From Nitrosarchaeum sp. (GTDB lineage: Archaea; Thermoproteota; Nitrososphaeria; Nitrososphaerales; Nitrosopumilaceae), in assembly GCA_021414105.1 (NCBI GenBank), contig JAIOPB010000048.1:1-38757 (forward strand): 38,757 bases of DNA, given 5' to 3'. Below, one piece after another: positions 591 through 12,999 of the stretch. The first letter of the stretch is position 1. Each line of letters starts with the position of its first letter. The position numbers and the translations under genes are program-made. Under the pieces are notes generated by a model, which was not told where the DNA came from, ran no database searches, and was given only the letters and a program-made list of their open reading frames with translations.

Positions 591-1001
591 TTGCAGCGAA
601 TCTTGAAGGTTTTTGATTGGAAGACATACATCTTTACAGCCGTTGCAGTAATTTCATTTTCAAATTTTATGGCAGTATTATTTGGGCAAACCATACCAGC
701 AACATTTATGACATTTTTTAGATATGCTGGCGAGACAATAATTTTAGGAGCAGTGTTTTTGTTTGCACTGTTATGGCTGTTAAAGGCAAGACCACACAAT
801 CGTCCAAAGAGCTATTCAATAGTAGTCTTTGATGTGTATGGAAAAGAAAGCGAGATAAGCGACATCCGCACTGAATTTAAGACTCATGATGTAGCTTGGA
901 GCTTTATGAAACAGTACAAAAAATCATACCCATTATACAATTTTGCCATGGTATCAAAACTTTCAAAATCAGACAAGCCAACTATTTTCAGATACATCTA
1001 A
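591..1001 (+). CDS. Conserved-looking two-helix membrane protein of unknown function
   Basis: A 136-residue ORF with a TTG start at 591; the next Met in frame is at residue 26, inside the first hydrophobic segment, so TTG is the more sensible start. Hydrophobic segments at about residues 12-32 and 47-65 are followed by a soluble C-terminal part of roughly 70 residues. That part has an alternating strand/helix pattern and a Tyr-Ser-Ile-Val-Val-Phe-Asp-Val-Tyr-Gly-Lys core. I do not recognise the domain. It lies 59 bases after fbp and 39 before the ligase gene, all on the same strand, so it could be co-transcribed. A minus-strand ORF covering the same DNA is judged a shadow. Confidence 0.6.
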   Translation: MQRILKVFDWKTYIFTAVAVISFSNFMAVLFGQTIPATFMTFFRYAGETIILGAVFLFALLWLLKARPHNRPKSYSIVVFDVYGKESEISDIRTEFKTHDVAWSFMKQYKKSYPLYNFAMVSKLSKSDKPTIFRYI

Positions 1002-1040
1002 GATTCAGACTTTTATTCAGGATAATACAATAGAACTAAA

Positions 1041-2813
1041 GTGGAGTTTTCTATTCTAGCTGATGCATTTAGTAAAATGGAATCAACTACAAAGAGATTA
1101 GAGTTAACACAACATCTTGTGGAATTATTTGAAAAGACTCCACAAGATGTGATTTCAAGAATTGTTTATCTCTTACAAGGAAAATTAAGACCGGATTTTG
1201 AAGGAGTTGAATTAGGAGTTGCAGAAAAGCTGGCAATAAGAGCAATAGCAAAATCAGCAGGGTCTGACAACGCTGAAAAGAAAATTGAAGATGAGTACAG
1301 AAAAAGTGGGGACTTGGGACATGCAGCATCCAAAATTTTAGAGCAAAAGGAACAGACCACGTTTATGGTTCAAGATATTACAGTTGAGCGAGTTTATGAG
1401 AACTTGTTTACAATTGCAAAACTAGAAGGCTCAAAGACTCAGGACAGAAAAATGAAATACATTTCAGGACTACTCAACGATGCAAGTCCAGTTGAAGCTA
1501 AATTCATTCTAAAGATTTTACTTGGAACATTACGATTAGGCATTGCAGAAAATACAGTAATGGATGCACTTGCCATTGCGTTTACAAACAATAAGGAAAA
1601 TAGAAAAGTTTTGGAGCATGCATACAATGTATCAAGTGATCTAGGAAAGGTTGCAGATACCATTGCAAGTAAAGGATTGAAAGGCGTAGAAGAATTTGAA
1701 ATTAATTTGTTTAATCCCATACGACCAATGCTGGCAGACAGAGTAAAAAGCGAAGAAGAAGCAGTTGAAAAACTAGGAAGCAACTTTGCTGCAGAATACA
1801 AACTAGACGGAGAAAGAGTTCAATTGCACATTGAAGGAGAGAAAGTAGTATTATTTTCAAGAAGCTTGGAAAACATTACAAGCTATTATCCAGATATTGT
1901 AGAAAAAATTCCTAAAGCAATTCAAGCACAAAAAGTAATTTTAGAAGCAGAGGCAGTTGCAATCAATGAAAACACTGGAGAGTTTTTGCCATTCCAAGAA
2001 CTGATGCATCGAAGAAGAAAATATCAAGTAGAAAAAGCAGTGTCACAGTATCCAATCACTGTAAACTTTTTTGATATATTGTATCATGATGGAAAAAGCT
2101 GTTTGGAATTAGGATACAAAGAAAGAAGAAGTCTTTTGGAAAAAATTGTAAAAGAAGATGACTATGCAAAGCACATACCAATGACTATCATAAACAATCA
2201 AGACGACATTGAAGAATTTTTGGAAAATAGCATCAACTCTGGATGTGAGGGAGTGATGCTAAAGATGTTAGACAAACCATATCAAGCTGGCTCCAGAGGA
2301 AGTTATTGGCTAAAACTAAAACGAGAATACAGAAATGAACTTGGAGACAGTCTTGACCTTGTAGTAATTGGTGCATTTTTTGGAAAGGGTAGACGAACTG
2401 GAAAATATGGAACCTTGCTTTTAGCTTCATATGATTATGACACTGACATATTTACAAGCATATGCAAAGTTGGAACGGGATTTACAGATGAAGACTTGGA
2501 TCAGCTCTATCAGATTCTATCAGATAAAGTAACAATAAAGAAAAATCCAAGAATAGACAGTGAGATGGAAGCTGATGTATGGTTTGAGCCAGAACTAGTA
2601 ATTGAAGTGGTTGCATCGGAAATAACTCTGAGTCCAATTCACAAGGCAGCAAGAAATGAAATTAGAAAAGACACGGGATTGGCATTGCGATTTCCAAAGT
2701 TTACTGGAAAAATACGACTGGAAAAAGATGCAGAGGATGCATCAACTAATGAAGAGATAATGACGCTATTCAAAGGGCAGAAAAAAGTAGCTCATGACAA
2801 AAATTTAATGTAA
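1041..2813 (+). CDS. lig: ATP-dependent DNA ligase
   Basis: A 590-residue protein, the usual length of archaeal replicative ligases. It joins Okazaki fragments and repair nicks using ATP. The order of parts is an N-terminal DNA-binding helical domain (about 1-220), the nucleotidyltransferase domain and an OB fold. Motif I is EYKLDGERVQ, with the AMP-accepting lysine at residue 254. Further motifs are LEAEAVAI, the Phe-Gln-Glu-Leu-Met-His-Arg-Arg-Arg-Lys stretch, EGVMLK and WLKLKREY. The start is GTG at 1041; no nearer upstream start keeps a sensible N-terminus. The end (EKDAEDASTNEEIMTLF then a basic tail) is typical. All catalytic motifs are present and nothing looks degraded. Confidence 0.95.
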   Translation: MEFSILADAFSKMESTTKRLELTQHLVELFEKTPQDVISRIVYLLQGKLRPDFEGVELGVAEKLAIRAIAKSAGSDNAEKKIEDEYRKSGDLGHAASKILEQKEQTTFMVQDITVERVYENLFTIAKLEGSKTQDRKMKYISGLLNDASPVEAKFILKILLGTLRLGIAENTVMDALAIAFTNNKENRKVLEHAYNVSSDLGKVADTIASKGLKGVEEFEINLFNPIRPMLADRVKSEEEAVEKLGSNFAAEYKLDGERVQLHIEGEKVVLFSRSLENITSYYPDIVEKIPKAIQAQKVILEAEAVAINENTGEFLPFQELMHRRRKYQVEKAVSQYPITVNFFDILYHDGKSCLELGYKERRSLLEKIVKEDDYAKHIPMTIINNQDDIEEFLENSINSGCEGVMLKMLDKPYQAGSRGSYWLKLKREYRNELGDSLDLVVIGAFFGKGRRTGKYGTLLLASYDYDTDIFTSICKVGTGFTDEDLDQLYQILSDKVTIKKNPRIDSEMEADVWFEPELVIEVVASEITLSPIHKAARNEIRKDTGLALRFPKFTGKIRLEKDAEDASTNEEIMTLFKGQKKVAHDKNLM

Positions 2814-2881
2814 TTTATGCGCAAAAATTACAATCAATCATAGAGGATTTAAATTACCTGAACATATTTTGAAATCTAGAA

Positions 2882-3535
2882 ATGTATAGCGGAGAGCTTG
2901 AAGTTCAAGCAAAAAGAAAGGCTATAGCAGTTTTACAAGACGAAATCAACAGAATTTTAAATGCGGCCAGAGAACTTGCAACACTACCAGACCTGATGAT
3001 GAAAAAAGACAAGACAGGTATCAAAAATTCACTTGAGCAAATATCAACTATCGAAGAAGAAGTGGAAAATCTTAGAAGAAAAATCACTAGGGAAGTAGCT
3101 GACGTCGGAGGTTTGATCATGAACAGAGAGAACCTTCTCAATACAGCATACACAATGGATGAGATTGCAGGTTACATCACCGGAATAGCATTCAAGCTTT
3201 CTAACATCAAGATAACGACACTAAAAAGTGCAAAGCTGGACGAAGATATCACAAAGTTGATTGAGTTGGTAGTAGACGAAGTTTACAAACTAAATGAGAT
3301 CATACGTAGTCTAAACACCAATACTGCTAATGCAATTGAACTAGCACAAGAAACACAAAAGATAGAACGTGAGATAGACGTCAAATATAGACAGGCAACA
3401 ATCAAGCTTTTATCAGAAGTTACAAACACCAAAGAACTATTGCTGATAAAAGACGTAATTGAGGGAATTGAAGAAATGTCAGACAAATGTCAGCGTGTCT
3501 CAGATTCTTTCATACTACTAGCATTGAGTCTATAA
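2882..3535 (+). CDS. DUF47/PhoU-like phosphate transport regulator
   Basis: An all-helical protein of 217 residues with long amphipathic heptads and the pattern of the DUF47 family, which resembles PhoU. One internal segment reads TAYTMDEIAGYITGIAFKLS and the C-terminus reads DVIEGIEEMSDKCQRVSDSFIL; such Glu/Asp-rich segments are where PhoU-like proteins hold metal. Members often partner PiT-type phosphate permeases, but no permease is adjacent here. It lies 68 bases after the ligase gene, with an ATG start directly after an AT-rich stretch. The family assignment rests on pattern recognition; the exact substrate or partner is not visible. Confidence 0.75.
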   Translation: MYSGELEVQAKRKAIAVLQDEINRILNAARELATLPDLMMKKDKTGIKNSLEQISTIEEEVENLRRKITREVADVGGLIMNRENLLNTAYTMDEIAGYITGIAFKLSNIKITTLKSAKLDEDITKLIELVVDEVYKLNEIIRSLNTNTANAIELAQETQKIEREIDVKYRQATIKLLSEVTNTKELLLIKDVIEGIEEMSDKCQRVSDSFILLALSL

Positions 3536-3635
3536 ACCACATCCATTTTTTTACTTTAAAATTTTTATCTTATTTTGCAAAAAAAATTAGCTATAACCAA
3601 GATAGTTTGTCTCAGAGAAGTTACATTACGTAAAA

Positions 3636-3743
3636 ATGAAAAATATAACAGAGAAGCAAATAAAGAAAATTAAACAGAGAGTAATTGAGGCTTGCAAAAA
3701 TGACTCGGGTCATACAGTGAAGTTATGCGCAGATTCAGAGTAG
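3636..3743 (+). CDS. Possible 35-residue basic small protein
   Basis: An ATG-to-TAG ORF of 35 codons in the 243-base gap between the DUF47 gene and endA. It begins with a Lys/Ile-rich amphipathic helix-like stretch and contains two cysteines (residues 20 and 31). A T-rich stretch (3541-3575) lies upstream and could be the end of the previous transcript. There is no recognisable domain. It could be a real small protein or chance; the remaining gap shows nothing else. Confidence 0.25.
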   Translation: MKNITEKQIKKIKQRVIEACKNDSGHTVKLCADSE

Positions 3744-3778
3744 AGAATTCATATACACAGATTATTTAAAAAAGCTAG

Positions 3779-4315
3779 ATGCGAACAGAACTAATTGAAA
3801 ATAGAATCATCGTATGGAATATTGAAGATTCACGCAAATTATTTAGCCATGGGTATTACGGTAAACCAATTGGAATTCCAAAACCAAAACCTGAAGAAAT
3901 CAACGTTCCATTAATTTTAGACCTCATAGAAGGACTGTACTTGCTTGAGAATAAAAAAATCACCATTTACAAATCAAATCAAAAGATCACAGTTGAAGAG
4001 ATGACAGAAAAATGTAAAAAAGAATATCATGATTTTGATAAAAAATATCTAGTATACAAAAACTTTCGAGACAAAGGATATGTGATTAATCCAGGAATAA
4101 AATTTGGATGTGATTTTGCAGTGTATGAGAAAGGACCTGGCATTGATCATGCACCATTTTTGATTCAGGTGTATAACAGAAACGACCCAATCACATCAAC
4201 TGGAATTGTTTTGGCAGGAAGACTTGCAACCACAGTAAGAAAGCAATTCATCTTGGCAATACCAAGAGGAAAAGATAAAGTGGATTTTCTTGCGTTAGAC
4301 TGGTGGAAAGCTTAG
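3779..4315 (+). CDS. endA: tRNA-splicing endonuclease
   Basis: 178 residues, the size of the archaeal homodimer or homotetramer-forming EndA. It cuts the bulge-helix-bulge at exon-intron junctions of precursor tRNA. The catalytic triad is visible: Tyr116 in GCDFAVY, His124 in GPGIDHAPF and Lys155 in ATTVRK, almost the positions known for the Methanocaldococcus enzyme (115, 125, 156). The N-terminal half is a short degenerate domain, and the motif LVYKNFRDKGYVINPGIKFG is typical. An AT-rich TATA-like stretch (about 3759-3770) lies close to the ATG, implying a very short or absent leader. Confidence 0.95.
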   Translation: MRTELIENRIIVWNIEDSRKLFSHGYYGKPIGIPKPKPEEINVPLILDLIEGLYLLENKKITIYKSNQKITVEEMTEKCKKEYHDFDKKYLVYKNFRDKGYVINPGIKFGCDFAVYEKGPGIDHAPFLIQVYNRNDPITSTGIVLAGRLATTVRKQFILAIPRGKDKVDFLALDWWKA

Positions 4316-4689
4316 ACGTTTTTTATGTGACCAGCTATTCTATCATAAATCTCAAAGAGCTCTTTTGTAATTCCAAACTCTAGATGATTCTTCCATTTGT
4401 TTCGAATTCTAATGGCACCATCAGTTGGCTCTATGTAGATTGTAGCGTCAGAGATGGATTGTTTTGCAATCATCTCATTTAGTGTGCTGTCCTCATTGAG
4501 CTTTTGTGCAAGACTACCGCTGCCATTCCATTCTACTTTAAGAATTGTTTTTGATGAAAAATGTCCTTTTGTTGTAAGTTTAGTGGTAGCAACGTAGTTT
4601 ACTCCATGATCAGTTTGCTTTCTGACAATAAAGTGTGCTTGGTATCTATCAAACGCACCCCATGGCATTGGATTTGGATCTTGCATCAT
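4312..4689 (-). CDS. Conserved-looking protein of unknown function (125 aa)
   Basis: A 125-residue soluble protein with alternating strands: YQAHFIVRKQTDHGVNYVATT, then KTILKVEWNG, then ATIYIEPTDGAIRIRNKWKNH. This suggests a small beta-rich fold with a C-terminal helix. I do not recognise the family. Its ATG overlaps the TAA of the upstream gene by one base (TAATG), so the two are very likely translationally coupled. Its 3' end overlaps the end of endA by four bases on the opposite strand. No catalytic signature is visible. Confidence 0.6.
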   Translation of the reverse strand: MMQDPNPMPWGAFDRYQAHFIVRKQTDHGVNYVATTKLTTKGHFSSKTILKVEWNGSGSLAQKLNEDSTLNEMIAKQSISDATIYIEPTDGAIRIRNKWKNHLEFGITKELFEIYDRIAGHIKNV

Positions 4690-5083: not shown

Positions 5084-6106
5084 ATGAAATGTGTTAGAAA
5101 AAATCAAACATCAGGAGTTAGTCTTGTAGATGTTCCAGAACCAACATGTGGAGATGGCGATGTGTTAATAAAAATGAAATCATGTGGAATATGCGGATCA
5201 GATTTAGGAAACATATTTGGAGATTCATGCAGACCATCATCCAAGCTTGGACATGAAGTTACAGGAGTCATTGTAAAAAAAGGTAGCAATGTTAAAGAAT
5301 TTAATTTGGATGACAGAGTGTTTGTACATCATCATTCACCTTGTAATAATTGTCATTATTGTAAACATGGAAATCAGACAATGTGTGAAAACTATGTTGA
5401 ATGTTTAGAGCCTTGTGGGATGTCTGAAAAATTTCTGATTCCTAAATGGAATATCAAACATGAAAGCTTGATCAAAATTTCAGATACTATGAGTTTTGAG
5501 GAAGCATCACTAATTGAACCACTAGCATGTTGCATTAGATCTTGGAAGAAAATTTCTTTTTCAAAAAATGATTCGGTGCTAGTATTTGGAGCAGGACCGA
5601 TTGGAGTCATGCATGCAATGTTAGCAAAACACTATGGATTTGGAAAGATATTTTGTGTAGACACTAATGAATTTAGATTAAATTTCTGCAAGGAGGCAAA
5701 TATTGGCATTCCATTGAAAGGAAATGAGTCGGATATTAGTGAAAAAATCAAGATATACACGGATAACTTGGATTTGATCATAATTGCCACTTCACAGACA
5801 GAAGTTGTTCATGATGCAATTAATTTAGTAAGAAAGGGGGGCACGATTCTTTTGTTTGGGGAACCAAGCAAAGAGTGTGAATTAAAAATAGAGCTGAGCA
5901 AGATATATTCAAAAGAAATTTCAATTATTCCAAGCTATGCTGCTTCAACAGATGAGATAAGAGAATCATTTGAAATTATAAACAATAAATCAATTAACAT
6001 TAAGCAGTTAATAACACATAAAGTTTCCATTCAGGATATCACAAAAGCTCTGAATTATGCTAGAACTGGAGATGGTGTGATGAAAGTCATCATTACAAAT
6101 GAATAG
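5084..6106 (+). CDS. Zinc-dependent medium-chain alcohol/polyol dehydrogenase
   Basis: 340 residues of the MDR superfamily, closest in pattern to sorbitol, threonine and related polyol dehydrogenases. Catalytic zinc ligands are probably Cys37 (CGICGSD), His57-Glu58 (GHE) and Glu145 (IEPLACC). The structural zinc loop has Cys87, Cys90, Cys93 and Cys101. The Rossmann motif is VFGAGPIG (167-174), and Asp193 at the end of the second strand favours NAD(H) over NADP(H). The substrate cannot be read from sequence. The gene converges on the ebo-like operon with only 13 bases between stops, so a link is possible but unproven. An oxidation or reduction of a cyclic or linear polyol would fit the neighbouring isomerase-like proteins. 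Confidence 0.85.
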   Translation: MKCVRKNQTSGVSLVDVPEPTCGDGDVLIKMKSCGICGSDLGNIFGDSCRPSSKLGHEVTGVIVKKGSNVKEFNLDDRVFVHHHSPCNNCHYCKHGNQTMCENYVECLEPCGMSEKFLIPKWNIKHESLIKISDTMSFEEASLIEPLACCIRSWKKISFSKNDSVLVFGAGPIGVMHAMLAKHYGFGKIFCVDTNEFRLNFCKEANIGIPLKGNESDISEKIKIYTDNLDLIIIATSQTEVVHDAINLVRKGGTILLFGEPSKECELKIELSKIYSKEISIIPSYAASTDEIRESFEIINNKSINIKQLITHKVSIQDITKALNYARTGDGVMKVIITNE

Positions 6107-6119
6107 TGATTAAAAATTA

Positions 6120-7469
6120 TTACAAGATTGAATCATTTGGAAGAGAATAACTACAGTTAAAGAATTTCAATATGGTTGGTGCTATTTGAGTGACATCTAT
6201 GAGATCAGTTTCTTTTTTTGGCTTGATAGACATTCCAAATATAGGTAGAGTATCAGTATTTTCACTATCAAACACACCATGAGAGCCTTTGATCAAAGAA
6301 ACATCATGAGAAATTCTTTTAGTCACTGAATCGAAAAATAATTCGAGTGGATCATAGCCAGGTTTTCGATGAATGTCAACGCTAAAAGTAAATGATGGGG
6401 CATGATTTTCATCTTCCCACCAATAATAATTAAACCAGCAGTTATCCTTTGCGTATAAAATTAACTCACCGCTTCTTGGATGATTTATGTTTAATTTTAT
6501 TTGAGATTTTTTATCAAGAATTCTTGCAATATTTTTTTCTTTTTTGAAAATTGAAGTAACGACATCATCATAGCCGAATTTTATAAAAACATGTGCCATC
6601 TGATGATCAACCATTGCAAACGCATTGCTGTTTTCAAAATCAATGTATTCTTTTCCCAGTATATTTCGAATGGAAAGTAAACCCTTTTGGCGTAGAAGTA
6701 TGTTTGGAGACAAAGAGTGGGTCACTTCATTAAATCCATATTCAGAGTGAATCATTATTTCATATTCGTTGTCAAGCTTGTTGGTATCAAGAAAATCTAA
6801 CAAATCTCCAATCATATTATCAATCTCAACTAAACTCTGCTTGAATTCATTACTTTGAGGACCATGCTTTTGTGCGGAATAATCCAAGTGGGGTAAATAT
6901 ACAAGTACCAAATCGGGGCTGTGTTTTTTTATTGTATACATTGACGCATCAATTATCCATCGGCTAGACTTGATTGATGCAAATGGACCCCAATACCATT
7001 TGAGATCAAATTCCCCTAGATGTTGAGCAATTTCCTCATAATAATGGACAGGTTTTGAATAACACCACATGATAGTTTTGTCTTCTAGATGAAGTGGCTT
7101 TGGAGTAATAACAAAATCAGAATTTGTGTAAAGAGAATTTTGCCAGAAAAGTACAGCTGTTTTTAATTTTGGGTTTGTTTTCTTTAAAATATCCCAAATT
7201 CTTGGCTTTTGAACCAAACTGTCATACTGTTCCCAGAATGAAACTTGTTTTGTATCTCTATCATAGAATCCATTTGAAATTATGCCATGATCAGCTGGAT
7301 AGTATCCTGAAGTAATCGAAGATTGGACACTACATGTTACTGCAGGAAAAGAAGGGATCATAGGAGAACAAAATCCTTTAGTAAAAATTTTTGAGATGTT
7401 AGGAAGCAAAACATCATCAAATGAATTTTTTGTTAATCCTACAACATTAATCACAATTAATTTTTTCAT
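6120..7469 (-). CDS. Alkaline-phosphatase-superfamily phosphodiesterase/pyrophosphatase, EboF-like
   Basis: 449 residues of the nucleotide pyrophosphatase/phosphodiesterase type. The nucleophile is probably Thr45 in PSFPAVTCSVQSS, followed by TSGYYPADHGIISNGFYD. The metal-binding regions deviate from textbook enzymes: LDYSAQKHGP where DxxGHxxGP is usual, and SEYGF where SDHG is usual, while GSHG near the C-terminus is kept. As I recall, EboF proteins of the bacterial ebo cluster show the same DYxxQ and SEYG variants. There is no signal peptide or membrane helix. It is the last gene of the operon, 50 bases after the UbiA gene. It may hydrolyse a prenyl or nucleotide phosphoester made by its neighbours; the substrate is unknown. 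Confidence 0.8.
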   Translation of the reverse strand: MKKLIVINVVGLTKNSFDDVLLPNISKIFTKGFCSPMIPSFPAVTCSVQSSITSGYYPADHGIISNGFYDRDTKQVSFWEQYDSLVQKPRIWDILKKTNPKLKTAVLFWQNSLYTNSDFVITPKPLHLEDKTIMWCYSKPVHYYEEIAQHLGEFDLKWYWGPFASIKSSRWIIDASMYTIKKHSPDLVLVYLPHLDYSAQKHGPQSNEFKQSLVEIDNMIGDLLDFLDTNKLDNEYEIMIHSEYGFNEVTHSLSPNILLRQKGLLSIRNILGKEYIDFENSNAFAMVDHQMAHVFIKFGYDDVVTSIFKKEKNIARILDKKSQIKLNINHPRSGELILYAKDNCWFNYYWWEDENHAPSFTFSVDIHRKPGYDPLELFFDSVTKRISHDVSLIKGSHGVFDSENTDTLPIFGMSIKPKKETDLIDVTQIAPTILKFFNCSYSLPNDSIL

Positions 7470-7519
7470 TTAATTATTCAAGACACTTTCTAACTTAAAA
7501 ATAAACCATTCATACTAGG

Positions 7520-8374
7520 TTATGTCAAGTATAGCTTTCGTAAAATAATATACGCGGGAAATATCATAGATATTGTTACTATTGCAAAAATAATATTGGA
7601 AAAAGCCATAACCAATATTCCATCTAAAATAGGAATGGAAAGCAATTGAATCGTCACAATTTTTTGTGTGGTCTTGGGAGATTTTTCTGTGAAAATCATC
7701 CAAGGGATATAACTAACAACAACAAAGATTCCAAGAATTAGCCAATGAGTAAATCCCATATCATGTGTTAAAATTACAACATAAACTATAGTGAATAAAA
7801 CAAGGATCAAATTAGCAATTTTTGCTTTTCTAGAATAACCATAACTCTCAGTTTTTGCAAGAATGCTAATTCCTGCTACAAAAATGGCAATTGGAATAGA
7901 CACCCAAATAATTTCAAAATTAAAAATGACTGTACTTGAGCCTAAAATTACATTCAAAAATCGTATAGACGAGAGATTTAGAATTCCAAGAATTTTGATG
8001 TTTTTTAGTTTGATATCATATGCAAATATGAGAATAGTCATAATGACAGATATGATTACTGCTTGGAATCCAACAAAAAATGCAGAAATATTTGCTGCAG
8101 CTAATAATGCAAGACCAAGACATAACGCTGTTTTTCTTGAGATTTTTCCTAAAGGAAGCGGTCTGCCCGGTCGTTCATTTTTATCTATATTGTAATCAAA
8201 ATAATCATTTAATGTCATTCCAGCTAAAAATAAAAAACCTGAAATTGTAAGAAGTGGAAATAAAACAAACCAATCACCAACAAATTCTGAATATATGAAA
8301 AAACCTAAAAAAACATTTGAGAGAGCAGTAAATATTCCTGGAAATCGCACTAGCTGAAAATAGGATTGTATCAT
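7520..8374 (-). CDS. UbiA-family prenyltransferase, EboC-like
   Basis: 284 residues, largely hydrophobic, with about eight or nine membrane helices. The first Asp-rich prenyl-diphosphate site is MTLNDYFDYNIDKNERPGRP, the pattern NDxxDxxxD followed by RPGRPLP. The second site is a reduced YDIKLKNI. Such enzymes attach a prenyl chain to an acceptor inside the membrane; archaeal members include digeranylgeranylglyceryl phosphate synthase. The company of TatD-like, EboE-like and phosphodiesterase genes argues for the EboC role instead. Its ATG overlaps the stop of the EboE-like gene upstream by four bases, a tight operon link. The acceptor is not known. Confidence 0.85.
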   Translation of the reverse strand: MIQSYFQLVRFPGIFTALSNVFLGFFIYSEFVGDWFVLFPLLTISGFLFLAGMTLNDYFDYNIDKNERPGRPLPLGKISRKTALCLGLALLAAANISAFFVGFQAVIISVIMTILIFAYDIKLKNIKILGILNLSSIRFLNVILGSSTVIFNFEIIWVSIPIAIFVAGISILAKTESYGYSRKAKIANLILVLFTIVYVVILTHDMGFTHWLILGIFVVVSYIPWMIFTEKSPKTTQKIVTIQLLSIPILDGILVMAFSNIIFAIVTISMIFPAYIILRKLYLT

Positions 8375-9195
8375 TTTAGATTAAGAGAATGTATGAATTG
8401 CATTGCCTCTTTAGCGGCATTTTCTGGAGTATCTAGATAAGGGTATAATTCGAGTGTAACGTAATTTCTATAATCAATATCATTAATTGCATCAAAAACT
8501 TTTTTGAGATCAATTGCCCCATGACCAGGAATCAAATGTTTATGTTCTCTTGATTCTGCAATGTCTTCTAAATGAATATGATCTATAAAATCTGCAAGAG
8601 TTTTAATTAATTTATCAGGTCTTTCACCTACACAAAAAAAATGACCCACATCAAAATTAAGGCCAAGATATTTTGTATTGAATCTGGAAATAAAATTTAG
8701 AAATTGTGAGGAATTTTCAATTAGCAGACCAGGTTCCGGTTCGATTAAAAGCTTTACACGATTTTTTTCTGCCACATCAATAACCTCGTTTAAGCCGTCA
8801 TAAAATAATTCTAATCCTTCTTTTTCAGACAATCCCAAAAGGGGCCCTCCCGGTTCCGTAGAAACAGTTTTCACTCCAAGTTCCTTGGCTAATTCTAAAC
8901 AATATTTGGTATGTTGTATTCTAGCATTGCGTTCGTTTGGATTTTTTTCAATCCATGAAGGGTGATGAAAATCATTAACAGCACACATCATAAATCCATT
9001 TAGATTTGAGATCTCCATTTGGTTTTCGCGTAATGTTTTTTTTATAGAATCAATTTTTTTAGCAGACAGTGGTGGAAATGCATGTGGCATATCACACATT
9101 AATTCAATTGCAGTATAGCCTACAGAAGAAATCGAACGTATGCTGTCTTCGATAGAATAATTTCTATATGCATTTGTACTGAATGAGAATTTCAT
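8371..9195 (-). CDS. Sugar phosphate isomerase/epimerase-like TIM barrel, EboE-like (copy 1)
   Basis: 274 residues of the xylose-isomerase-like/AP-endonuclease-2 superfamily. Candidate metal ligands are Glu in LLIEPEPGLL, Asp and His in LNFDVGHFF, His in DHIHLED and Glu in VTLELYPY. The N-terminus MKFSFSTNAYRNYSIEDSI is shared with the paralogue two genes upstream. The family includes isomerases, epimerases and hydrolases, so the reaction is not fixed by sequence. It is nine bases downstream of the TatD-like gene and overlaps the UbiA gene by four bases. In the ebo cluster one such protein (EboE) occurs; here there are two. Confidence 0.85.
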   Translation of the reverse strand: MKFSFSTNAYRNYSIEDSIRSISSVGYTAIELMCDMPHAFPPLSAKKIDSIKKTLRENQMEISNLNGFMMCAVNDFHHPSWIEKNPNERNARIQHTKYCLELAKELGVKTVSTEPGGPLLGLSEKEGLELFYDGLNEVIDVAEKNRVKLLIEPEPGLLIENSSQFLNFISRFNTKYLGLNFDVGHFFCVGERPDKLIKTLADFIDHIHLEDIAESREHKHLIPGHGAIDLKKVFDAINDIDYRNYVTLELYPYLDTPENAAKEAMQFIHSLNLK

Positions 9196-9204
9196 GCGAT
9201 TGAT

Positions 9205-9999
9205 CTATAAGGGAATATAATTTTTTGATTGTTTAAAAAAATTATTGGGATTATGAAAAAGTAATTTGTCAATCTCTGTTTTACTAAAACCATCTTTTTC
9301 CATTTGGATTGCAGTCTTTGGCACACTTAGAGGATCTGATATTCCCCAATCTGCAGAGCTGTTGATCAAAATTCTATCAGTGCCGTATTTTTTTAGCATG
9401 TTAACTGCTCTAATTGGACTTACTTTGGTATGTGGGTAAACAGTTATTCCTGCCATCACATCATAAGATAAAGAAAGTTCTATTGTTTCTTCAGTATTAT
9501 GATCCATGATAATTCTTGATTCGGTGGCATTACAGTTTTTTATAATATCAAGTGTTTTTTTTGTTCCTTCTACTTTATTGACATGTGGAGTATGAATAAT
9601 AACTGGCATTTTAAGTTCCTCAGCCATTATCAATTGTTGCGTAAACACTTTTTCTTCTTCTTTAGTAATCATATCAAATCCTATCTCGCCTACTGCTACA
9701 ACTCCTTCCTTACTAAGATAATCACCCATAACATTTAGTGATTCACTGGCAAGTTGTGAATTATTGGCTTCTTTTGGATTTACAGAGATGGCACAATAAT
9801 GATTTATGCCAAATTCTTTTGCTCGTGTTCTTTCAAAATTTATCAAATAATTCCAATAATCAACTAGTGTTTGTGATGAAGTGCGTGCTTGTCCGAGCCA
9901 AAATGAAGGCTCTATAACAGTCTTAATCCCAGATAAACTCATTTTTTCATAATCATCTGTTGTTCTAGAATACATGTGGATGTGAGGATCAACAAACAT
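9205..9999 (-). CDS. TatD-like metal-dependent hydrolase, EboB-like
   Basis: 264 residues of the amidohydrolase/TatD type. Metal ligands appear in order: HIH near the N-terminus (His6, His8), Glu in VAVGEIGFD, His in PVIIHTPH, His in IIMDHNTEE and Asp in INSSADWG. The arrangement of strands and helices matches a TIM barrel. TatD proteins are often nucleases, but this divergent branch within an ebo-like operon probably acts on a small molecule. It overlaps the upstream EboE-like gene by 11 bases. The start is ATG at 9999 with the metal-site HIH close behind, so the start is secure. Confidence 0.85.
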   Translation of the reverse strand: MFVDPHIHMYSRTTDDYEKMSLSGIKTVIEPSFWLGQARTSSQTLVDYWNYLINFERTRAKEFGINHYCAISVNPKEANNSQLASESLNVMGDYLSKEGVVAVGEIGFDMITKEEEKVFTQQLIMAEELKMPVIIHTPHVNKVEGTKKTLDIIKNCNATESRIIMDHNTEETIELSLSYDVMAGITVYPHTKVSPIRAVNMLKKYGTDRILINSSADWGISDPLSVPKTAIQMEKDGFSKTEIDKLLFHNPNNFFKQSKNYIPL

Positions 10000-10828
10000 G
10001 ATTTAACATCAAATTCTTTAGGTATGTAAAAGTAATCTTTGCTGCATACTCTGGATTTTTTGAGTATGTATAAAGTTCAGCAGTAAGAAATCCTTCATAA
10101 TTAATCTCTTTTAGTGATTTGTACATAGCAGAAAAGTCAATGTTTCCTAAACCAGGAATCAGATGATAATGGATGTTATTTTTACAATCACTTATGTGTG
10201 TATGAAGAATTTTTTTCCTAAATTTTTTAATAATTTTAGATATATCTTCACCTAAAACAGCTGCATGACATACATCGAGGTTTAATCCAATATTATTAAA
10301 TTGAGAAACGATACTAGATACATCATGTGAATTTTCAAGTAGCAGGCCAGGTTCATATTCTATTGCTATTGAAATATTTTTTGTTTCAGCAAACGATGCA
10401 AGTTCAGTTAAAGATTTTTTAAAATTACGTAGGTGAATAGATTTTTCGGATTTAGGGGAAATTCCAGAAGTGATACATATACTTGGAGATTCTAAAATGG
10501 AGGCTAGTTCAATTGCTTGTTTAGTGTAGTTTAATCTCCATTGTCTAAGTTTTTCATTTTTATTTGAAAGTGATGGCTCAAATTTTTCTATTATAGCATT
10601 TCGGTCATACCAACCTACTACAGTATTGACATTTAGATTTGCTACTTTGAGTTTATTTTTTTTAAGACAATTTTTTATTGTAGACAAATATTTTTTATTT
10701 AACGGTAAGAAGGCATGAGGTACATCAAGGACAAGTTCCACTCCGTCGTAACCAATGTTTGATATAGATTCTATACAATATAACAACGATTTTTCAGTAA
10801 ATGCATTTGTGCTAAAGCCAGTCTTCAA
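9989..10828 (-). CDS. Sugar phosphate isomerase/epimerase-like TIM barrel, EboE-like (copy 2)
   Basis: 279 residues, paralogous to the protein at 8371-9195: both start MK-[FT]-[SG]-FSTNA and share DVPHAF/DMPHAF, EPGLL-[IL]-ENS, LN-[FL]-DV-[GC]-H and LIPG-[HL]-G. Likely metal ligands are Glu in IAIEYEPG, Asp and His in LNLDVCHAA, His in LHTHISD and Glu in LTAELYTY. The start is a TTG at 10828 that follows directly on the TAA of the 48-codon ORF with no gap. The two copies differ enough to act on different intermediates or form a heteromer. Function beyond the superfamily is inference. Confidence 0.83.
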   Translation of the reverse strand: MKTGFSTNAFTEKSLLYCIESISNIGYDGVELVLDVPHAFLPLNKKYLSTIKNCLKKNKLKVANLNVNTVVGWYDRNAIIEKFEPSLSNKNEKLRQWRLNYTKQAIELASILESPSICITSGISPKSEKSIHLRNFKKSLTELASFAETKNISIAIEYEPGLLLENSHDVSSIVSQFNNIGLNLDVCHAAVLGEDISKIIKKFRKKILHTHISDCKNNIHYHLIPGLGNIDFSAMYKSLKEINYEGFLTAELYTYSKNPEYAAKITFTYLKNLMLNHVC

Positions 10829-10975
10829 TTACTTTTCATTAAGAGCGGCTAGTAGATTTTCCTTTGCTTTTGTAATTTTTTTGGGATCAATGTATGAATT
10901 TGGGAGTAGGATCTTAGCTGCTTCCCATACCAAATTCTCTATCATAGCCATTTTATTGTGTTCTTCTTTGGACAT
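10829..10975 (-). CDS. 48-residue ORF leading the ebo-like operon
   Basis: An ATG at 10975 gives 48 codons ending TAA at 10829, immediately abutting the TTG start of the EboE-like gene. The product is a charged helical peptide with the stretch IENLVWEAAKILLPNSYIDP and a Lys-rich end. Its position, perfect abutment and helix-like composition support a real gene. Bacterial ebo clusters start with EboA, a larger protein, and I cannot claim homology. The 140-base region upstream, shared with the divergent SDR gene, contains AT-rich promoter-like DNA (10990-11030). Confidence 0.5.
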   Translation of the reverse strand: MSKEEHNKMAMIENLVWEAAKILLPNSYIDPKKITKAKENLLAALNEK

Positions 10976-11115: not shown

Positions 11116-12999
11116 ATGTCTATGCTGAAATTTCAGGGTAAAGTTGCTCTAGTAACAGGCAGTGGAACTGGAATTGGACAAGCTATTGCTAAAAAATTTA
11201 TTGAAAATGGTGCCAGTGTGATTATTTTAGGTAGAAGACGAGAGCCATTAGAAGAAACATCAGTAATGCTAAAAGAAATAATTTCCAAAGTAAATAGCGG
11301 TGCATTTGTAAGAATTTTCTCCGGTGTTGATGTAAGCGATGAAGTTGGAATTAATGAGATGTTTGATACGCTAAAAAAAGAAAACCTGACAGTTGATTAT
11401 GTAATTAATAATGCAGGAGTTTCAGGACCTGTCACTTGCTTTGCAAATGCACCACTGGATGAGTTCAAAAGTACAGTGGATATTCACCTGACTGGAACAT
11501 TTTGGGGCTCAGTCCAAGCACTAAAAGTAATGAAAGAAAATGGAAAGATTGTCACAATTTCAACATTTTTCACAGAAGAAAGACCACTTGAGCAAAGACC
11601 GTATAGATTTAGAAGCCCATACACTGCATCACAAGGTGCAAAAAATAGACTAGTGGAAGCAATGTCTTGGGAGTTAACAGATAAAAAAATCATATCAATC
11701 GGAACAAATCCAGGTCCAGTACATTCAGATAGAATTTACAAGACAGTATATCCAAAAGCTGCGGCAGAATTTTTACGAGTAAGTGGTTTTGAGGACCTAA
11801 CACCAGTTCAAGTCGATGCTGCAAACAAGGAACTATTACCATTATTAGGCGAGGATCAAAATATAATTAAAAACGGAATTGTAAAAGCTGCACAAAAACT
11901 ATCAAAGGATAATGGGAAAGATATTGCAAAACTAACTGCTACTCTTGGCAATCTATTAAATAAAATTCAAAGCATTGCAGAAAAAGTTCAAAACAACACA
12001 TCACATATGATTGCAGACAAACAATTTTTAGCGCAAGGACAAGTTGCAGAATCAGTTTTGAATTTATGTGATGAACAAATTGCAAAAATTCTAAACGGCA
12101 AAATAATTCCAGGAGACAGAGTATTTTATCCAGTTAAACCACACATTGGTACCACCACACCAGGTGTACACCAACCAGACTTTACTGGAAGATCAATAGT
12201 ATTTACAATAGATGCAACTGAAAAATCAGATGCAGTGAGAGTAGAATATCTGGCACAACATGTTACAAAAAACGGTGGCAAAGTTGCATGTTTTATCTCT
12301 GAATCAACTCCAAAAGAATTACAAGAATACATTAGTGGAAAATTCCATTCCCACATAGTAAATCTCAAGAATCCAGATGAAGTCCAGAGATGGCTAAATA
12401 CTGCAAAGACTAATCTTGGCAGCATATTAGCAGTAATCCATATCACAGGAAAACTGCCAAACATTGCAAAACTAACAGAACTATCAAGGGCAAAATGGCA
12501 GGAATTAATTGAAAAATTCATCACAACCCCTGCCATAGTTGGACAAAGAGCACTAGAGCAGTTTGTTCCTGGGGGAGACAAGGATCCGCGATTATACAAA
12601 GATGCAAGAGGTGCCATGATGATAATCGGACCAGATTTGCCATCTGGTGCAAAAGTTACAGGACTACAAAGAGCACAAGTGGAGGTATTTCGCGGAGCAC
12701 TAAGACCATTTACAACTACAGTAAACCAAGAACTAAGCGATGTACTTGATTCAAAGATCAGAATATTCTCAATATTTCCAGGTTCAGTTACGGGAGTAGA
12801 ACCAAACAACGAGAGAATTGCCCAAGCGTTGAATTTCCTAGTATCGGATAATGCGGCATCTTCATCTGAAGTCACATTTTGTGTTGATGAATCAATATCT
12901 AAAATTTTCCAGAATAAAAAATGCGTTTCTAGAAGACATACAAAATACAAAACAAAAACTAGTTTCAGGCAGAGCCATCCTATCAAGAATGGAGGGTGA
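11116..12999 (+). CDS. Tandem short-chain dehydrogenase/reductase (two SDR halves)
   Basis: The first SDR domain (1-260) has TGSGTGIG (14-21), NNAG, and SPYTASQ with Tyr169. The usual lysine of YxxxK is Gln173, with a lysine three further on. A helical linker follows, then a second, degenerate SDR-like half (about 360-605) without a nucleotide-binding glycine motif. This functional-plus-degenerate layout is known from each half of the bifunctional malonyl-CoA reductase of Chloroflexus. A role in 3-hydroxypropionate or acyl-CoA chemistry is therefore possible, but only by analogy. The last 20 or so residues are oddly basic and probably come from a frameshift near 12926; the natural end would then be about residue 605. 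A TATA-like stretch lies near 11091-11102. Confidence 0.8.
   Translation: MSMLKFQGKVALVTGSGTGIGQAIAKKFIENGASVIILGRRREPLEETSVMLKEIISKVNSGAFVRIFSGVDVSDEVGINEMFDTLKKENLTVDYVINNAGVSGPVTCFANAPLDEFKSTVDIHLTGTFWGSVQALKVMKENGKIVTISTFFTEERPLEQRPYRFRSPYTASQGAKNRLVEAMSWELTDKKIISIGTNPGPVHSDRIYKTVYPKAAAEFLRVSGFEDLTPVQVDAANKELLPLLGEDQNIIKNGIVKAAQKLSKDNGKDIAKLTATLGNLLNKIQSIAEKVQNNTSHMIADKQFLAQGQVAESVLNLCDEQIAKILNGKIIPGDRVFYPVKPHIGTTTPGVHQPDFTGRSIVFTIDATEKSDAVRVEYLAQHVTKNGGKVACFISESTPKELQEYISGKFHSHIVNLKNPDEVQRWLNTAKTNLGSILAVIHITGKLPNIAKLTELSRAKWQELIEKFITTPAIVGQRALEQFVPGGDKDPRLYKDARGAMMIIGPDLPSGAKVTGLQRAQVEVFRGALRPFTTTVNQELSDVLDSKIRIFSIFPGSVTGVEPNNERIAQALNFLVSDNAASSSEVTFCVDESISKIFQNKKCVSRRHTKYKTKTSFRQSHPIKNGG

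Follow-up and report, generated by a model that had tools for sequence, protein, structure and literature searches.

A probable archaeal ebo-family operon lacking a recognised cyclase, and its possible role in building a prenylated polyol lipid

The closest described relatives of the gene cluster considered here are the ebo operons of eustigmatophytes and bacteria, including the EDB cluster of Pseudomonas. In the three reports read here the product of ebo is unknown (PMC5133447, PMC6282210 and PMC9235831); one of these records that Ubi-297, an EboC homologue from Maribacter, farnesylates 8-hydroxyquinoline-2-carboxylic acid in membrane fractions, and that its R145A variant has a similar activity (PMC9235831). 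Two of them mention archaea with respect to lipids and other UbiA proteins (PMC5133447, PMC6282210), and none of the titles listed by our searches of open PMC papers describes ebo from an archaeon, subscription papers and preprints being outside their scope. Here we describe a six-gene cluster on the minus strand of a 38,757-nucleotide stretch of Nitrosarchaeum sp. (contig JAIOPB010000048.1, assembly GCA_021414105.1; hereinafter the window), which is very probably an archaeal member of the ebo family, with its EboB, EboC and EboF sharing descent with the bacterial Ebo proteins as judged from their sequences. The fuller reading, namely that of a cyclase-free archaeal ebo variant building a prenylated polyol lipid, we hold at about even odds (a probability of roughly 0.5).

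The cluster occupies positions 6120 to 10975 and in the order of transcription comprises a conserved small protein of 48 residues (10829..10975, recognised from the list of open reading frames and its conservation); E1, a short xylose-isomerase-like TIM barrel of 279 residues with a TTG start (9989..10828; PF01261 (AP_endonuc_2), 4.2e-35); EboB, a TatD/amidohydrolase-type metal hydrolase of 264 residues (9205..9999; PF01026 (TatD), 2.5e-16); E2, a second short TIM barrel of 274 residues (8371..9195; PF01261, 5.2e-45); EboC, a UbiA-like membrane protein of 284 residues (7520..8374; Pfam UbiA, 1.2e-20; NF035940); and EboF, an alkaline-phosphatase-superfamily protein of 449 residues with an altered metal site (6120..7469; PF01663 (Phosphodiest), 1.6e-61). 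Both barrels resemble keto-sugar epimerases. The six open reading frames are separated by gaps of 50, −4, 9, −11 and 0 bases in ascending order of coordinate, in agreement with the original prediction of tightly packed minus-strand genes with gaps of −11 to 50 bases, the smallest of them being a real conserved gene. Two other genomes of the genus carry these six genes in the same order, with protein identities to the window of 81–91% for the five large genes and of 87% over 45 residues for the 48-residue protein. As both order and proteins are kept in these relatives, the arrangement cannot be put down to chance.

The NCBIfam model that best matches the window EboC is that of EboC itself (NF035940, 2.5e-42, 145 bits; curated cut-off 250). 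In a tree of 69 rows, 50 EboC proteins split from 19 other archaeal UbiA proteins, three of them from the same genome as the window, with a support of 96/96, and the 25 Nitrososphaerota EboC proteins form a single group (95/96). Rows of less than 120 bits or 220 residues were dropped, and the tree omits 12 EboC rows out of 62, which were either near-duplicates or, in some cases, divergent bacterial versions, a short row from the window's own genome (L005) and six of the 20 background loci (L022–L041). The digeranylgeranylglyceryl phosphate (DGGGP) synthases and other archaeal UbiA proteins share with the window EboC membership of the UbiA superfamily and the first aspartate motif, of which all three aspartates are present in 50 of 50 EboC rows. 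In contrast, the second UbiA motif (a D..[GAN]D pattern in the C-terminal half) occurs in none of the 50 EboC rows as compared to 17 of the 19 other archaeal UbiA proteins, while an alignment column near that region holds a glutamate in 49 of 50 EboC rows and in none of the 19 others. A loose pattern for the same glutamate motif recovers 44 of 50 and three of 19, respectively, the alignment-column test being the sharper of the two.

EboF is distinctive in its own right: at E 1e-10 or better, PF01663 finds one match in each of ten carrier genomes, and each time it is the cluster gene. We compared it with the Xanthomonas nucleotide pyrophosphatase, in which we take D54, T90, D210, H214, D257, H258 and H363 to be the zinc ligands. 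Across all 48 EboF rows, bacterial and archaeal alike, this metal site is altered, with the position of D54 (the residue preceding a Gly) occupied by V, A or P, that of H214 by Q or L and that of H258 by Y, whereas T90 and D210 are retained throughout. At D257 we observe E in 39 rows and D in nine, and H363 is retained in 46 rows, the remaining two being truncated; the ligand alignment was made to 2gsn and stops short of H363. Three or four of the seven ligands are thus changed in the rows examined. A further set of residues (D288, H289, H293, H367 and K369) is also invariant in 17 rows and may form a relocated metal site. PMC5133447 makes no mention of an active site, zinc, aspartate, or conserved or catalytic residues.

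EboB retains H6, H8, E105, H136, H167 and D217, presumably its metal ligands, without exception in an alignment of eight rows. Loci were taken from the best 80 of its 189 relatives, which had been recovered with search patterns built on Nitrososphaerota rows, so that the sample leans to close kin; the nearest named EboB in it, at 81% identity, is that of a Nitrosopumilus metagenome-assembled genome (MAG). In a tree of 98 rows without a TatD outgroup, 39 Nitrososphaerota proteins group with that of an Acidobacteria MAG contig (L064) at 92/87, short of a starred branch; within this group the Acidobacteria protein is sister to those of the window group (100/94), and haloarchaeal EboB falls outside it. 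Among proteins of solved structure, EboB comes closest to the uncharacterised AF_1765 (3guw, 3e-30). On plasmids, tblastn recovers EboB in 56 of 72,556 records, all in the band below 60% identity and all covering at least 80% of the protein, with 44–52% identity among the 25 matches listed, which are bacterial and haloarchaeal; several of the plasmid matches adjoin annotated EboA, EboE or cyclase genes.

These three proteins had been called EboB-, EboC- and EboF-like in the original prediction, and each assignment to an ebo-specific lineage stands: for EboC by its best model, the tree split (96/96), the glutamate and the missing DxxGD-like motif, which together place it apart from other archaeal UbiA proteins rather than inside a non-ebo family; for EboB by identity to EboB proteins in ebo contexts and by the tree; and for EboF by the residue signature and its position in the cluster, there being no tree with other PF01663 proteins.

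The two barrels, which had likewise been named EboE-like, fared differently. The EboE model (NF035939) gives E2 only 35 bits (4.8e-9) and E1 33 bits (1.9e-8) against a cut-off of 250, and in a tree of 53 barrels bacterial EboE forms a separate clade (100/100), although the bootstrap had not settled; accordingly, we reject their membership of EboE. The best NCBIfam matches are instead IolO for E1 (5.5e-28) and fructoselysine 3-epimerase for E2 (1.2e-24). E1 falls together with the barrels found in Paenibacillus, haloarchaea, L064 and L065 at weak support (84/63), and the E2 rows do not form one group. Positions E, D, H and E, which we take to be metal positions, are kept in 40, 42, 41 and 40 of 43 short barrels, respectively. 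As these barrels are not EboE, the window represents a short-barrel form of the cluster, as is also seen in Paenibacillus and haloarchaea.

The predicted absence of an EboD cyclase holds up. Neither PF01761 (EboD-type) nor PF07994 (inositol-3-phosphate synthase) has a match in the window genome, a finding that is weak by itself since this genome (1.29 Mb in 65 contigs, the window being contig C43) is 91.6% complete. Including nine cluster-carrying relatives, PF01761 exceeds its cut-off in none of ten carrier genomes, with one weak match below it, as compared to 11 of 14 control genomes; PF07994 likewise passes in none of the ten, with two weak matches below the cut-off, but only three of the 14 controls pass. 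Seven of the other carriers searched are single contigs at 98–99% completeness. Our own hidden Markov models (HMMs) for EboD and inositol-phosphate synthase also find nothing in 41 Nitrososphaerota loci, a set made up of the window, nine loci identified by handle and 31 by name, with L074, titled "bacterium", placed by sequence and with L047 and L068 coming from one genome. These archaea may still have a cyclase that belongs to a different family. Some published ebo operons are also without eboD (PMC5133447). EboA was not detected in the ten carrier genomes (NF035938), but no control genome was positive either, even though the model does match EboA in L052 and L055; our own HMM for EboA finds none in the 41 loci. 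Hence, the full EboA–F set is not seen in the archaeal cluster, in which neither EboE nor EboD was recognised, the EboA search being one without a positive control.

The cluster shows a patchy distribution. Of 400 genomes sampled from the order, 59 have EboB, 15 of them in the window's family and 44 in family f8, which we read as Nitrososphaeraceae; two of the regions (G552:C102:18806-19516 and G574:C370:1653-2282) contain many in-frame stops and are possibly decayed. A search with the window EboC finds homologues of 81–82% identity in two genomes of the genus, making three of its 18 members with the window included, and matches six of 61 relatives; three of these matches are weak, among them G043, which has a soil-type cluster. 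Against 398 genomes of the phylum the EboC model yields ten strong matches (E ≤3.8e-37) in two families, followed by a gap to 6.2e-28, none of them over the model's cut-off. Besides the window there are seven single-contig carriers (G014, G242, G313, G043, G366, G393 and G427).

Two layouts recur among these loci. The window layout (48-residue gene, E1, EboB, E2, EboC, EboF, dehydrogenase) is found in the window, L042, L043, L044, L061, L062 and L063. The soil/Nitrosotalea layout combines EboB, E2, EboC and EboF with a different barrel, E′, often together with a dehydrogenase. The latter layout is also that of the one genome read from genus g9 (G313, locus L045); in the EboB and EboC trees the proteins of this genome and of G242, both from the window's family, lie beside those of Nitrosotalea and Nitrosopelagicus. 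With the nearest named EboB coming from Nitrosopumilus, we read the host as belonging to the Nitrosopumilaceae in a broad sense. While the genes stay together in relatives, some soil genomes have split sets (L046 and L048, as well as L047 and L068, which lie about 90 kb apart on one contig). In four soil loci (L067, L070, L072 and L081) a gene of 331–335 residues follows E′, the L067 copy being a PF10017 protein.

The cluster of G242 sits between two genes whose homologues adjoin each other in G001, the cluster of the latter lying about 5 kb away. The flanks of the window include two archaeal-type genes, for a tRNA-intron lyase and for a TIGR00574-family DNA ligase. In six other loci compared with them nothing closely homologous was found, the only matches being weak ones (<30%) to L062 and L063. 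Both observations suggest that the cluster has moved. Its G+C content, about 30–33% per kb, is among the lower values in the window (30–39%) and offers no clear signal of transfer. Upstream of the operon and divergent from it, positions 11116-12999 code for a protein of 627 residues, the first third of which is a short-chain dehydrogenase; no homologue of it was seen in L042 or L043.

The 48-residue gene tracks the window layout closely. In comparisons of the window with L042 and L043, its nonsynonymous (dN) and synonymous (dS) divergences are 0.11 and 0.47 and 0.10 and 0.59, respectively, rough values from few sites; dN/dS is about 0.1–0.24 where computable, which shows, at the level of sequence, that the gene is under purifying selection. 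Its HMM matches only the seven window-layout loci, in all of which it lies directly upstream of E1, and the Acidobacteria contig L064, in which it lies upstream of EboB. Across the family it occurs in eight of 250 genomes, a ninth (G652) being a weak match with two stops that was left uncounted. These eight are precisely the family's eight EboB carriers outside genus g9, which itself has seven more; in G588, G660, G674 and G707 the gene lies ~845 bases upstream of EboB with one barrel gene in between. No similarity of the protein to EboA or EboG was found, and a putative relative in the haloarchaeal cluster L054 (E 1.6) was rejected as a short chance match. We propose that it may be a small helper of the Ebo complex.

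As an observation apart, the 7.4-kb contig L064 carries at 796-4499 a barrel gene, the relative of the 48-residue gene, EboB, E2 and EboC, which is either a transfer between domains or a misbinned contig.

A further gene absent from the original prediction is a zinc-type MDR dehydrogenase (5084..6106, plus strand; PF08240 and PF00107) that runs convergently to the operon, with its 3′ end 13 bases from the EboF gene. Such a gene lies beside the EboF gene in all seven window-layout loci, running towards the operon in five of them and in the same direction as the operon in L062 and L063, and near the cluster in 17 soil-type loci, amounting to 24 of the 41 Nitrososphaerota loci. In an unrooted tree of 37 rows the seven window-layout copies form a clade of their own (99/97), which lies together with eight core paralogues in a larger group (100/100); the 17 copies from soil-type loci make up a different group (100/100), which suggests two separate recruitments of a dehydrogenase to the cluster. 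Core relatives of this family are found in 60 of 61 genomes, the second copy of the window genome lying elsewhere at 48% identity. As the family is so common in these relatives, we interpret the cluster copy as a specialised duplicate; by itself the family is not diagnostic of the cluster. In two soil loci without the MDR gene, the larger gene of a pair, of the dihydroorotate dehydrogenase type by Pfam, stands beside EboB and divergent from it (L067:6755-8489 and L068:7723-8676), with a partner of ~275 residues. Six further soil loci show a gene pair of the same sizes. The strongest pointer to a required oxidation step is the presence of two different dehydrogenases beside a cluster without its cyclase.

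The described systems help to place the archaeal form. Like the ebo operons proper, the window unites related EboB, EboC and EboF in one operon with TIM-barrel partners of the xylose-isomerase superfamily; unlike them, it shows no EboD, no EboA in a search without a positive control, and two short barrels in place of the ~400-residue EboE that is present in most of the bacterial clusters examined, and has in addition the adjoining dehydrogenase, the 48-residue protein and archaeal hosts. Ten plasmid regions were opened, eight from EboB matches and two from EboC matches, picked for variety and not at random. Nine of these show a cyclase, annotated as 3-dehydroquinate synthase (EboD-type) in L051, L052, L053, L057, L058 and L059 and as inositol-3-phosphate synthase in L054, L055 and L060; L056 has neither within the stretch examined. 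The Streptomyces SCO3242-type cluster (L055) and the haloarchaeal clusters (L054, L060) share EboB, an EboC-type protein, EboF and short barrels with the window, and the haloarchaeal order B-E-C-E resembles that of the window. They differ in their inositol-3-phosphate synthase, which was not found over the cut-off in any of the ten archaeal carriers tested; Streptomyces also has EboA and EboE, whereas the haloarchaeal L056 is without a cyclase in the same limited stretch. The haloarchaeal B-E-C-E clusters (L054, L056 and L060) reside on large plasmids typed as non-mobilizable. In Streptomyces camelliae (L055:2084-11404) a ScyD/ScyE family gene lies upstream of the ebo-like cluster and an aromatic prenyltransferase downstream. 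The E-B-E-C-F clusters of Paenibacillus (L080, L085) have the gene order of the window, after which come another barrel and a sugar phosphate cyclase resembling AroB, with no MDR gene flagged by HMM in the two loci; unlike the window protein, the EboC of L080 scores above the curated threshold (269 versus 250 bits).

As a possible route we envisage that the dehydrogenase would oxidise a polyol or sugar to a ketone, next to which the two TIM barrels would epimerise, a role suggested by their best-matching families being keto-sugar epimerases. EboB would hydrolyse an intermediate, and EboC would then attach an isoprenoid to the polar head at the membrane, perhaps using geranylgeranyl diphosphate via its single aspartate motif. 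The biochemical anchor for such prenylation is the farnesylating activity of the bacterial Ubi-297 (PMC9235831). Archaea make geranylgeranyl diphosphate for their lipids. EboF might act on a phosphate-bearing group with its changed metal site, and the end point would be a prenylated polyol lipid serving as a carrier or as the end product; this identity of the product we put forward as tentative, and somewhat less likely than not. A bolder version seems rather unlikely to us, in which the ebo scheme would operate without a cyclitol on an open-chain polyol or sugar oxidised by the twice-recruited dehydrogenase, with EboC and EboF performing non-canonical chemistry across the whole family and yielding an unknown class of prenylated archaeal lipid.

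Several points weigh against such a route. Substrate and product of the archaeal cluster are predictions from sequence; the EboC score stays under its curated cut-off; and the lack of the second aspartate motif means that the prenyl donor of EboC may differ. Similarly, EboF may not hydrolyse phosphate, given its several changed ligands, and the residue changes in both proteins warn against reading the family as a plain prenyltransferase plus a plain phosphodiesterase. The groupings of the barrels are weak. Nearly all relatives have a member of the dehydrogenase's family, the MDR tree carries a long-branch warning, and the gene is seen by the cluster in only 24 of the 41 loci, a shortfall due partly to contig ends and partly, in some soil loci, to the dihydroorotate-dehydrogenase-type pair standing in its place; instead of two recruitments, one dehydrogenase may have replaced another.

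Much the same residue changes lend themselves to a different explanation, that the Ebo proteins form a membrane complex moving a small molecule outward, as has been proposed for the scytonemin monomer, a sunscreen precursor, in Nostoc, with EboC and EboF binding rather than catalysing; the rows examined of both proteins are without the canonical catalytic residues. Loss of the whole cluster in Nostoc, or of any one of the five genes tested (A, B, C, E and F), keeps the monomer in the cytoplasm (PMC6282210). What was seen in this one cyanobacterium does not carry over by homology alone, and for the archaeal cluster scytonemin-like export is no more than an analogy. We doubt this transport role, given that Ubi-297, itself an EboC, prenylates in membrane assays (PMC9235831), that metal positions are retained in EboB and in the short barrels, as would suit catalysis, and that no transporter was recognised beside the cluster in flanks that are partly annotated. 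A dehydrogenase, a hydrolase and epimerases could alternatively make up a catabolic cluster for a polyol or a keto-acid (inositol- or uronate-like) on the pattern of the IolM/IolO pathway, known from Thermotoga. Two soil-type dehydrogenases were tested, of which one has IolM as its best NCBIfam model (7.5e-42) and the other has it narrowly in second place (5.1e-38), and IolO comes top for the one soil-type E′ barrel tested (1.5e-44) as well as for the window E1. Yet all these scores lie far under the curated cut-offs, models of L-threonine dehydrogenase outscore IolM on the window dehydrogenase, and the pathway has no place for a UbiA-like membrane protein and EboF, so that we regard catabolism as quite improbable.

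That these might be ordinary archaeal lipid genes, with the UbiA protein a DGGGP synthase among unrelated neighbours, finds some encouragement in the only solved relative of EboC at E 0.001 being such a synthase (6m31, 1e-11). We nevertheless reject this identity on the placement in the EboC tree, apart from the 19 other archaeal UbiA proteins with three from its own genome among them; the missing second aspartate motif and the accessory nature of the gene (three of 18 genus genomes) also speak against it, leaving it very improbable. Bacterial contamination of the bin might be suspected from the patchiness of the cluster and from the bacterial MAG contig L064 having the nearest non-archaeal EboB to the window group. 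With the cluster present in seven single-contig relatives and the window flanked by archaeal-type genes, we reject this explanation too, its probability being practically negligible.

The reading we favour thus remains that of an archaeal ebo variant without a cyclase that makes a prenylated polyol lipid. If it is true, these archaea would build a different membrane-linked molecule by a scheme similar to that of bacterial ebo. The occurrence of a version without a recognised cyclase in about one in seven of the sampled genomes of an order that includes ammonia oxidisers limits the part that the cyclase can play, and carriers can be compared with close relatives that do not have the cluster.

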